A DNA stretch of 33,973 bases, taken from contig JALWKK010000100.1 of NCBI GenBank assembly GCA_027081505.1, positions 1-33,973 on the forward strand, read 5' to 3'. Of the stretch, positions 11,599 to 18,026 are shown piece by piece. The DNA comes from Flavobacteriaceae bacterium. GTDB taxonomy: Bacteria; Bacteroidota; Bacteroidia; Flavobacteriales; Flavobacteriaceae. The position numbers and the translations under genes are program-made. The first letter of the stretch is position 1. Each line of letters opens with the position of its first letter. Below the pieces are notes generated by a model. It was not told the origin of the DNA. It ran no database searches and worked only from the letters and a program-made list of their open reading frames with translations.

Positions 11599-12324
11599 AT
11601 GGAAGTAAAAAAAAATCCAAAGATTGACCTTTCGAAAAGAAGCTTATTATTTTTTCAATTAGGAATGATACTAATGCTTTTTATTACCTGGAGAGCCATT
11701 GAGCACAAAACTTACGAAAAATCTGATATCGATACCGGAATGGTTGATGTAGCCGATGACCTTGAAGAAGATATCCCGATTACAGATCAAACGACCCCTC
11801 CGCCTCCGCCTCCACCACCACCGGCAGCACCGGAAGAGATAGAGGTGATTGAAGACGAAGAAGACATCGAAGAAACCGTGATAGAATCTACAGAAACCGA
11901 TGCCGAGGAAGAAATCGTAGAAGTAGAAGAAATTGAAGAAGAAGAAGTAGAGGAAGAAATTGCCGATGTGCCTTTTGCCGTTATTGAAAAAGTACCTGTT
12001 TATCCGGGTTGCGAAAGCGCTAAAGGTAATGCGGCAAAGAAAAAATGTATGTCGGATAAAATCAAAAAATTTGTTAATAAAAAGTTTAATACCGATTTAG
12101 CCGGTGATTTAGGACTGGAAGGAAGACAACGAATTACCGTAATTTTTAAAATAGACAAGACCGGCGGTGTGACAGGAGTAAAAGCACGAGCACCGCACCC
12201 TAAGTTGGCGAAAGAAGCCGAAAAAGTTGTTAAAATGCTTCCTAAAATGCAACCGGGAAAACAACGAGGAAGACCGGTTGGTGTGCTTTACACGCTTCCT
12301 ATTATATTTCAAGTTCAAGATTAA
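11599..12324 (+). CDS. TonB-family energy transducer (first copy)
   Basis: Predicted inner-membrane protein that passes proton-motive force energy from ExbB/ExbD to outer-membrane partners; no ExbB/ExbD genes are in the window. Order of parts: short basic cytoplasmic tail, one membrane segment (about residues 15-32), a run of nine prolines (67-75), a strongly acidic linker (79-121), and a TonB C-terminal domain from about residue 127. The domain begins VPVYPGCES and carries a Cys pair (Cys138 and Cys150, C-x11-C) that recurs in the next gene and, with one residue less, in remB. The acidic linker, in place of the usual Lys-Pro spacer, is distinctive. A clear terminator follows, so it is probably its own transcription unit. 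Confidence 0.9.
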   Translation: MEVKKNPKIDLSKRSLLFFQLGMILMLFITWRAIEHKTYEKSDIDTGMVDVADDLEEDIPITDQTTPPPPPPPPPAAPEEIEVIEDEEDIEETVIESTETDAEEEIVEVEEIEEEEVEEEIADVPFAVIEKVPVYPGCESAKGNAAKKKCMSDKIKKFVNKKFNTDLAGDLGLEGRQRITVIFKIDKTGGVTGVKARAPHPKLAKEAEKVVKMLPKMQPGKQRGRPVGVLYTLPIIFQVQD

Positions 12325-16682: not shown

Positions 16683-17363
16683 TTAGTTATTAGAATCACT
16701 GCATAGATATTTTTTAATGATGTACTTGGTAATAGGTTTTAGCGTTTTACCGGTAAGCGGATGTTTACCATAATAGGTGAAGTAATCATAGTTGCCGGCG
16801 GGGCTTTTACCGTACCAAACAATGGGTTCGTTTTTTATAAAAAATGTGGTGTTGCAGGTAGGATGTATTTGTTTTAGGTTTTGTAATATATCTTCATTAC
16901 AGTAAACTATTTTTCTTTGCGCCAGTTTTTTAGCATTAAAATTCACCTCTATGTATTCTTCGTTTTGCCATTCCATCCAACAATCTTTTTTCGGAAAATA
17001 TAAAAAAGATGCTACTACAATAACGATGACTCCGGCAATTAAAATGGGTAAAATCTTGTTTTTTTTAATTTCTCTAATCGATTTTGTTTCGGGGTTTTTT
17101 GTTTTAAAATCTTCAAAGTCATGATAACTTAGAAATTCACAAAGTCCTTGAACCACCTTTTCTTGTTTTAAAACAACCGATTTGTTATTCTTAGCTTTAT
17201 TGTAATGGTTTTTTAAGCTTCTTCCGGTATATACAACTTTTTTTTCTTCCAATATTTCAGAAAGAAACTCGGCGCATTGTGACTCGGACGCATCAATACC
17301 ATATTTGGTTGCAAATATTTTTTTTGCTTTTTTAAAAGCATCAGATAGTAGTTTTTTGTGCAT
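16683..17363 (-). CDS. Unrecognised single-span membrane protein
   Basis: A 226-residue protein I do not recognise. The N-terminal ~100 residues are charged, helical and probably cytoplasmic, with a possible small DNA- or protein-binding fold (TKYGIDASESQCAEFLSEIL, then TGRSLKNHYNKAKNNKS). One membrane segment follows (about residues 103-123, ILPILIAGVIVIVVASFLYF). The ~100-residue C-terminal part would lie in the periplasm and contains several Trp, Tyr and Cys residues. This layout resembles a membrane-tethered sensor or regulator, but that is only an inference from topology. The ATG at 17363 is the first in frame. A weak -7-like TATCTTTA on the minus strand (17386-17393) could start transcription. 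Confidence 0.7.
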   Translation of the reverse strand: MHKKLLSDAFKKAKKIFATKYGIDASESQCAEFLSEILEEKKVVYTGRSLKNHYNKAKNNKSVVLKQEKVVQGLCEFLSYHDFEDFKTKNPETKSIREIKKNKILPILIAGVIVIVVASFLYFPKKDCWMEWQNEEYIEVNFNAKKLAQRKIVYCNEDILQNLKQIHPTCNTTFFIKNEPIVWYGKSPAGNYDYFTYYGKHPLTGKTLKPITKYIIKKYLCSDSNN

Positions 17364-17487
17364 AGCAACTTATTTTTCAAGTGATTAAAGATAAGAATTT
17401 TTTTAGAAAATATCCTTCCTAAAAATTTCGGTAAAGCTTCTGTTAATTTTCCAATATAGCCCGTTTTCAGGTTATTTATTTGCGTCA

Positions 17488-17537
17488 GAATTAAAGCAGC
17501 CTCCGGTGTAATGAGGCTAATTACACGGTTTTAATTC
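17488..17537 (+). other. Structured leader element, module 1 (nested and competing inverted repeats)
   Basis: A perfect 8-bp outer helix, GAATTAAA (17488-17495) with TTTAATTC (17530-17537), encloses two competing hairpins. One is AGCCTC (17498-17503) with GAGGCT (17513-17518). The other is GTGTAAT (17506-17512) with ATTACAC (17520-17526), extendable by two C-G pairs past a bulge. The two inner hairpins overlap and cannot coexist, because a pseudoknot would leave only one base to cross a 6-bp stem. Confidence 0.6.
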
Positions 17538-17538
17538 G

Positions 17539-17614
17539 GGATGACAAAGTAAGGTTTTTAACTTTTTTGAGAAGCAAGTTTTTGCCTTACTTACGTCATC
17601 CGTCAAGCTTCTCA
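17539..17614 (+). other. Structured leader element, module 2 (long hairpin with a competing alternative pairing)
   Basis: GGATGAC (17539-17545) pairs with GTCATCC (17595-17601), and AAGTAAGG (17547-17554) pairs with CCTTACTT (17585-17592), giving a 15-bp interrupted stem. AACTT and AAGTT (17560-17564, 17576-17580) pair inside the loop. TGAGAAGC (17568-17575), in that loop, is perfectly complementary to GCTTCTCA (17607-17614) just beyond the stem. Forming both fully looks sterically impossible, so this is again an either/or arrangement. Confidence 0.6.
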
Positions 17615-17618
17615 TCAT

Positions 17619-17647
17619 CCGGTTAGCAGGGTGCTATCCGGTAGGTT
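17619..17647 (+). terminator. Terminator-like hairpin directly upstream of a small lipoprotein gene
   Basis: CCGG-T-TAGCA-GGG-TGCTA-T-CCGG (17619-17641) forms a stem of 5 bp plus 4 bp with one T-T mismatch. After TAGG come T5, then further T6 tracts up to the ATG at 17672. The position inside a leader suggests attenuation, although four bases separate the stem from the first T run. Confidence 0.45.
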
Positions 17648-17671
17648 TTTAATTTTTTAATTTTTTAAATC

Positions 17672-17833
17672 ATGAAAAAAATAAGTTTTATTTTATTTAT
17701 GGCACTCATTGTTTTTGCCATTTTTTCTTGTACGCCAAGAAGCTTATCTGACAAATCAATAACCGAACAAGCCTGTTGCGGTGAAGAAGGGCAAATACCG
17801 CCTCCACCTCCCGACGGAGTAACCGGTGGATAA
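17672..17833 (+). CDS. Small lipoprotein with Cys-Cys and polyproline motif
   Basis: A 53-codon gene with a clear lipoprotein signal: Lys-Lys near the start, a hydrophobic run, then AIFSC with Cys20 as the likely lipidated residue. The mature peptide of about 34 residues contains a Cys-Cys-Gly motif followed by QIPPPPPDGVTGG. I do not recognise a characterised family. The very short mature part, the double Cys and the five prolines suggest a small surface or periplasmic peptide, possibly a signal or a binding partner. It sits 31 nt after the terminator-like hairpin of a structured leader. A second short signal-peptide ORF begins 52 nt downstream on the same strand. Confidence 0.65.
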   Translation: MKKISFILFMALIVFAIFSCTPRSLSDKSITEQACCGEEGQIPPPPPDGVTGG

Positions 17834-17885
17834 CGGTTTTACTGGTGTACCGGTATAAAACCGTAAGTTTTATTATTTTAGAGGA

Positions 17886-18026
17886 ATGAAAATAGCGCTA
17901 CTTTTATTCCTCTTTTTTTGTTTAACCGGATTTTCGCAAAGCGATAAAGACAGCATATCTTATTACCGAAACATATTCCTTAATCCTGAAAAATCCGGAG
18001 ATTTAACCAAATACAATTCCTTTTGA
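17886..18026 (+). pseudogene. Short signal-peptide ORF, possibly the stump of a longer secreted gene
   Basis: A 46-codon ORF starting MKIALLLFLFFCLTGFSQ, a good signal peptide, with a mature part of only ~28 residues (SISYYRNIFLNPEKSGDL and a few more). The opening resembles, from memory, the start of flavobacterial exported TPR-containing proteins that are hundreds of residues long, so the gene may be truncated here. After the TGA at 18024 the same frame stays open for about 38 codons but with no recognisable domain. The alternative is an intact small secreted peptide co-transcribed with the lipoprotein 52 nt upstream. Confidence 0.4.

Follow-up and report, generated by a model that had tools for sequence, protein, structure and literature searches.

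Covariation evidence for a conserved structured 5' leader RNA with crossing helices in flavobacteria

We report that positions 17486-17615 of the window, by which we mean the whole stretch of 33,973 nucleotides of Flavobacteriaceae DNA that was analysed, almost certainly correspond to the core of a conserved structured cis-acting 5' leader RNA. This leader RNA family is found in flavobacteria and is absent from Rfam 15. Considered as a whole, the locus is best explained by a conserved leader, an autoregulated operon and switching between alternative folds, a combination that we judge to be probable.

Crossing helices and their conservation

The initial annotation had listed a series of perfect complementary arm pairs in this region, two sets of which were said to alternate as X-Y-X'-Y'. 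Each named pair is indeed present at its position within 17488-17641, and the alternating arm order is found in both sets. All helices are given here on the plus strand. The 5' domain (17488-17537) is closed by an outer helix, P1, GAATTAAA/TTTAATTC (17488-17495/17530-17537), and contains the first crossing set, in which S1 (X, AGCCTC/GAGGCT, 17498-17503/17513-17518) is crossed by S2 (Y, GTGTAAT/ATTACAC, 17506-17512/17520-17526), the latter being variable beyond a core group of sequences. It is followed by the long hairpin P3 (17539-17601), the X of the second set, which consists of outer arms GGATGAC/GTCATCC (17539-17545/17595-17601), of second arms AAGTAAGG/CCTTACTT (17547-17554/17585-17592) and of a small apical helix (17560-17564/17576-17580). 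The crossing helix of this second set, Y/Y', is formed by TGAGAAGC in the P3 apical loop (17568-17575) and GCTTCTCA at 17607-17614. Further 3', a CCGG...CCGG hairpin, CCGGTTAGCAGGGTGCTATCCGG, can be read from the sequence at 17619-17641; it is not a recognised terminator and, among 59 aligned copies of the RNA, its sequence occurs in the window and, in altered form, in the relative G004 only.

The leader region contains five perfect arms of at least 7 bp, whereas 1000 dinucleotide shuffles had 0.35 on average and never as many as five. The folding energy of 17440-17680 has a z of -3.4, with 0 of 200 shuffles equally stable.

A search at the DNA level gave one good relative, G004, which belongs to the window's genus and is 93% identical across 501 bases; the other DNA-level matches were short and mostly AT-rich and were taken as chance. 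All other relatives came from a protein search: with the small lipoprotein encoded at 17672-17833 as query, matches were obtained in 209 of 299 genomes of the family at a loose E of 1, and 60 regions were taken from these, in order from the best match. Upstream of the stronger lipoprotein relatives a common layout was visible by eye, with an outer helix at the RNA start enclosing an X-Y-X'-Y' set, then P3, then Y'. The core of the P3 apical loop, GRGAAGU, is complementary to the segment directly 3' of P3, and a GACGUC-type hairpin comes next in many copies.

A first alignment kept 38 of 62 sequences, after 21 had been omitted and three had been found to lack the anchor. Fourteen seeds were chosen by eye for clean alignment and one of them (L103), which was misaligned, was removed, leaving 13 seeds, none from the window's genus. 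The covariance model built from them, R1, holds nested helices only and contains one wrong pair (column 67 with 126 instead of 127); its E-values are rough according to the search tool itself. R1, a model without the window's genus, matches the window at 17486-17615 with an E of 2.1e-5, and at E ≤0.01 it has matches in 43 of the 62 source sequences. A second covariance model, R2, made from 12 of 17 Flavobacterium-type sequences, again with none from the window's genus, matches the window at identical coordinates (E 0.0015), the next-best match in the window having an E of 0.85. The 59 copies were aligned from 44 of the 62 sources and 17 others, the 18 sources with no, weak or doubtful matches being omitted; three of the 44 (L075, L076 and L105) have no match at E 0.004. 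Since this alignment was fitted to the nested helices, their paired percentages are biased upward, whereas the crossing helices lie outside the model.

The initial annotation had proposed alignment against relatives and a covariation check, and homologous leaders with compensatory changes were found. In the 13-sequence seed alignment, both-sided changes occur in 28 of 46 pairs, against 11.0 in shuffled alignments. In the 59 copies we counted 426 double-change cells against 131 shuffled, and 85.6% of cells are paired against 70.2% shuffled and 38-50% with slid partners. Compensatory changes are present in all helices, both crossing sets included. Y/Y', which was outside the model and hence not fitted, has 88.9% of its cells paired, with at least six of nine pairs in 59 of 59 copies and at least seven in 58; its variable pair occurs as G-C in 39 copies and as A-U in 19, and the AAG of Y shows little or no variation across the 59 copies. 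The first set is less widely kept, being clear in the core group only: 18 of 59 rows have at least four of five pairs in both S1 and S2, and of the three parts of S2 two are paired in only 55-60% of cells. Of the two alternating layouts noticed in the window, the second is kept in 59 of 59 copies and the first just in the core group. Two covarying crossing helices, as expected of an H-type pseudoknot, are present. The start-codon region was checked for a third crossing set; the hairpins there overlap and have no uniform pattern, and none is claimed.

Between the window and G004, substitutions at 17520, 17585 and 17598 keep pairs in the unshifted helices, all as G-U on the plus strand. Other changes break a pair, one at 17518 and one within the CCGG hairpin. 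The small apical helix of P3 is displaced by an indel accompanied by substitutions. Over all helices of a 56-row alignment, doubtful rows included, there is a modest excess of G-U over A-C (125 vs 69); Y/Y' runs opposite, with 14 A-C vs 5 G-U in the same 56 rows. We read the leader strand as plus, on the grounds that the RNA then leads into the peptide gene and that the G-U pairs point the same way.

Putative promoter, operon and distribution

A candidate -7 box of a Bacteroidota sigma-A promoter, TTTG, lies at 17479-17482 on the plus strand, with a predicted RNA start at about 17487. In 41 of 59 copies TTTG stands exactly 3 nt 5' of the model start, and in 48 it does so at 2-5 nt; it is missing from the 2-5 nt interval in the other 11. 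The promoter consensus used for comparison, TAnnTTTG, is that given in the available part of PMC9723704, and the window's match to it, TTTATTTG, is partial. Transcription probably starts near 17487, adjoining the outer helix, from a promoter of Bacteroidota sigma-A type.

Upstream of this box are four 11-bp direct repeats (17412-17455, no strand assigned), ATCCTTCCTAA/AAATTTCGGTA/AAGCTTCTGTT/AATTTTCCAAT, which score 18 of 24. A period of 10 or 11 fits best in 48 of 59 copies and one of 9 in nine more, with z=18 at 11 relative to single-base shuffles. The sequence of the repeats varies between genomes, a pattern that co-evolution with a DNA-binding regulator would produce. They are putative binding sites of the operon's response regulator.

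The gene that follows the leader (17672-17833, plus strand) encodes a small lipoprotein of 53 aa, ...SCTP...ACCGEEGQIPPPPPDG..., for which lipidation and export are predicted from the sequence; no Pfam or NCBIfam family matched it. On the minus strand, a divergent gene of 226 aa (16683-17363) has ORFs of similar length at the same position in many copies, often beginning MHK or MHR, and no Pfam or NCBIfam domain matched it. In an intact operon the order is divergent gene (~230 aa), leader, peptide, kinase (~550 aa) and regulator (~221 aa). Pfam scans, carried out on the proteins of G004, gave TPR and HATPase below the cut-off and Response_reg above it. G004 (locus L122) is intact, whereas in the window the kinase is reduced to a remnant of the start of a TPR histidine kinase, a 46-aa ORF on the plus strand (17886-18026, with G004-like similarity to about 18126), and the regulator gene is absent. 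No orthologous regulator was found in the window's assembly, which is ~79% complete, the best regulator-like matches elsewhere in it being ~28% identical. The window's genome has kept the leader and the peptide gene without the kinase pair.

Just 3' of the peptide gene, an inverted repeat, AGAGGAAT...ATTCCTCT (17880-17913), spans the kinase start. Comparable repeats of GAGGAAT/ATTCCTC or GAGGGA/TCCCTC type are seen at the kinase start in the distant copies L049, L052, L055, L056 and L058. This repeat is possibly a second cis element for the kinase.

When the 299 family genomes were scanned with R1 (E ≤0.05), 33 were matched, 13 of them being R1 seeds. All 33 matches sit 57-109 nt 5' of a match to the peptide gene, on the same strand, and a small ORF lies downstream in 33 of 33. 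Across the order, R1 matched 11 of 196 genomes; at one of these loci, L130, from another family, it is accompanied by a peptide-like ORF and by kinase- and regulator-like ORFs. A small ORF follows nine of the ten R1 matches at the order-wide loci examined, the tenth (L131, in genome G405) being a false match that falls within a large ORF resembling gyrase/topoisomerase. Over the whole class, two of 198 genomes were matched at E ≤0.01, the window's own and one of its family. Within the window's genus, four of 19 genomes are matched by R1 at E 0.1.

With R2, matches were obtained in 134 of 299 genomes of the genus g128, some with two or three copies; these 134 include at least three seeds (G376, G458 and G332), and equal bit scores suggest about eight. 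We take g128 as Flavobacterium because its copies match named Flavobacterium loci. We examined 23 R2 matches in 20 regions and observed a small ORF immediately 3' in 22 of them, which in L216 and L219 is no clear lipoprotein. A kinase lies within 3.3 kb in 22 of the 23, L226 being the sole match without one, and a regulator too in 20, these genes being named from length, place and first residues. The sole match with no small ORF occurs in L212, from a Flavobacterium-type genome, in which tandem RNA copies at 11828 and 12454, 626 nt apart, precede one peptide gene and kinase; it is the upstream copy of the two. Among the matches examined there was no free-standing copy save this upstream one.

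The regulator was also used to find 80 named loci. R1 matched nine of 78 (L135 and L203 not included) and R2 the same nine of 80. Named species that carry the locus include F. segetis (L139) and F. xinjiangense (L142). Five RNA-less loci that were inspected (L134, L145, L158, L178 and L199) have kinase-regulator pairs or a lone regulator, without leader or peptide, so that the kinase family is broader than the RNA. In three of the five (L134, L145 and L178), ribosomal-protein-like genes precede the kinase and regulator genes or the lone regulator, again with neither leader nor peptide. A Flavobacterium-type RNA copy adjoins the regulator at 1796-1934 of L143, a contig labelled as a Lentimicrobium MAG, which is likely mislabelled or misbinned.

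Proposed alternative folding and competing readings

The minimum-energy fold contains P3 in 56 of 59 copies and Y:Y' in two. When Y:Y' is forced instead of P3, the median cost is 2.6 kcal/mol, with a range from -9.4 to +13.4 and a value of 8.5 for the window; because this range is so wide, a balanced two-state design is not uniform across the copies. P3 and Y' are separated by at most 2 nt in 55 of 59 copies; the longest linker, 5 nt, is that of the window and G004. Of the 18 rows with both S1 and S2, 13 have a 1-nt loop across S1 and five have a loop of 2-3 nt. The usual 1-2 nt linkers seen here look shorter than the minimum loops of ordinary pseudoknots; a sharply bent P3 might nevertheless accommodate both helices. 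Given linkers this short, the likely options are alternative folding, pairing of two molecules and an unusual bent fold.

We propose the following mechanism. P3, the stable fold, would form first during RNA synthesis, and Y', which would emerge right after it, is complementary to Y in the apical loop. As the linker is usually no longer than 2 nt (5 nt in the window), one molecule could hardly form Y:Y' and keep P3 intact; Y:Y' would then represent an alternative state or else join two separate RNA molecules. A ligand, a protein or a partner RNA may drive the switching and in this way set the expression of the peptide and of the kinase operon. In addition, the operon's own regulator may bind the 10-11-bp repeats, giving an autoregulated system. 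Autoregulation by the paired regulator is what we believe to be the likelier situation. That the RNA acts specifically as a switch between alternative states, the option that we favour among the three, is put forward tentatively. With similar reserve, the leader could be seen as a new RNA family whose crossing helices have linkers too short to coexist, making it a bistable switch or an obligate dimer, and which controls an autoregulated exported-peptide/kinase signalling system across flavobacteria.

Regarding the mode of control, the initial annotation had supposed that the leader attenuates expression of 17672-17833 and that its last hairpin is terminator-like. A scan of the window between 17380 and 18000 returned no terminator-like site and TAGG intervenes between the last hairpin and the T runs, so the hairpin does not deserve that description. 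Because no terminator was found, attenuation by an intrinsic terminator is unsupported in the window, whereas the other half of the proposal, a structured leader beside the peptide gene, agrees with the linkage in 33 of 33 family matches. The T-rich stretch and start, ...TTTTTAATTTTTTAAATCATGAAAAAA (17643-17680), has matches elsewhere in genomes of the window's genus and is therefore not specific to the small lipoprotein gene; with its ATG it is perhaps a common translation-start context. Control through translation or RNA stability is possible. An ANTAR-target leader with antitermination was rejected on the G004 regulator, in which Pfam detects Response_reg alone and no ANTAR domain.

Could the crossing helices simply coexist? 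They would then form two compact, oddly shaped pseudoknots, a fixed structure binding a ligand or a protein with no switch, and both partners do covary in each crossing set, as is also seen in many pseudoknotted riboswitches. The internal loops that P3 has in some copies might allow it to bend. However, the linkers appear too short, with a single nucleotide spanning S1 in 13 of 18 rows and with P3 and Y' at most 2 nt apart in 55 of 59 copies, and the P3 stems of L062 and of the window look almost continuous. We hold coexistence to be unlikely.

The 5' part of the transcript might instead be a trans-acting regulatory RNA under two-component control, in the manner of RNAIII in the agr system, with the peptide gene riding along. 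The strongly conserved loop bases (the AAG of Y, over 59 copies) would suit such a role, as would a locus made of a peptide and a two-component system; moreover, the available part of PMC9723704 describes Rfp18 of F. psychrophilum, a genus-conserved RNA that affects protease mRNAs. This reading is nevertheless unlikely, since a small ORF follows 33 of 33, nine of ten and 22 of 23 matches in three sets and since the terminator scan, which covered 17380-18000 of the window alone, was empty.

Pairing of Y with the Y' of a second molecule, aided by palindromic hairpin loops, would abolish the difficulty posed by the linkers. In 18 of 59 copies, where 1.7 would be expected, Y' is in fact followed by a hairpin whose six-base loop is palindromic. 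Seven different palindromes are represented, but GACGTC alone accounts for 12 of the 18 and the shuffles preserve single-base composition only; furthermore, no such loop was found in the window, G004 or any of the 17 Flavobacterium-type rows. A homodimer of this kind seems to us quite improbable.

Finally, a mobile palindromic element, which had been named as the main alternative, or inverted repeats arising by chance in AT-rich surroundings can practically be discarded in spite of the density of the repeats: a check for recurrence found a single copy of the leader region in the window's genome (2.1-Mb assembly, 112 contigs, ~79% complete) and not the scattered copies of a REP or MITE, the 33 family matches share the same locus across genera, and covariation is well above shuffled and slid controls. 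The reading that we retain remains a conserved leader with alternative folds ahead of an autoregulated operon.

Comparison with known RNAs

Strong covariation and a fixed gene neighbourhood, together with absence from Rfam 15, make this an RNA family of comparative-genomics grade, common in one large genus that we infer to be Flavobacterium (134 of 299 genomes). The very short linkers between its crossing helices pose a sharp structural question. We recognised no published description of the flavobacterial leader RNA in the open-access literature, considered mostly at the level of titles and the beginnings of abstracts.

The leader resembles riboswitches and other 5' leaders with alternative folds, as this class is generally understood, in its cis position, its covarying alternative helices and its likely control of a gene; in particular, a position before the gene with covarying structure, as in metabolite riboswitches, was found. 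It differs from them in that it has no Rfam match, no known platform and no terminator in the window (17380-18000), an intrinsic terminator being one of several possible platforms, and in that the downstream genes hint at no ligand. The initial annotation had recognised no named riboswitch, and in agreement with it Rfam 15 gave no match at the gathering cut-off in the window and 12 homologous loci; a permissive search of 17380-17900 gave five weak matches, all far below the cut-off.

Flavo-1 and other structured RNA motifs of Bacteroidota were reportedly described by Weinberg et al. in 2010. Flavo-1 is included among the Rfam families. It is, like the leader, a structured RNA motif of Flavobacteriaceae, but the Rfam 15 search of the window and the 12 loci did not retrieve it or any other family. 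It is also mentioned in the available part of PMC9723704. The same part presents Rfp18 as an independent structured sRNA, conserved in Flavobacterium (PMC9723704). Rfp18 and the leader have in common that they are strongly structured and conserved beyond one Flavobacterium species; they differ in that Rfp18 is described as an independent transcript, the comparison being one of descriptions only, without position or sequence (PMC9723704, available part). On such a comparison Rfp18 may or may not be a member of the leader RNA family.

The combination of a small exported peptide with a kinase and regulator of its own is suggestive of a signalling or quorum-type system. To our knowledge, such peptide signalling systems are poorly known in flavobacteria. 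In Staphylococcus, RNAIII of the agr system, which belongs to a two-component locus, is likewise structured and includes the gene of a small exported peptide. The phylum and the layout are different, as here the RNA heads a kinase operon and has no known trans target, whereas the likeness lies in the presence, at one locus, of a structured RNA, a small exported peptide gene and a two-component system.
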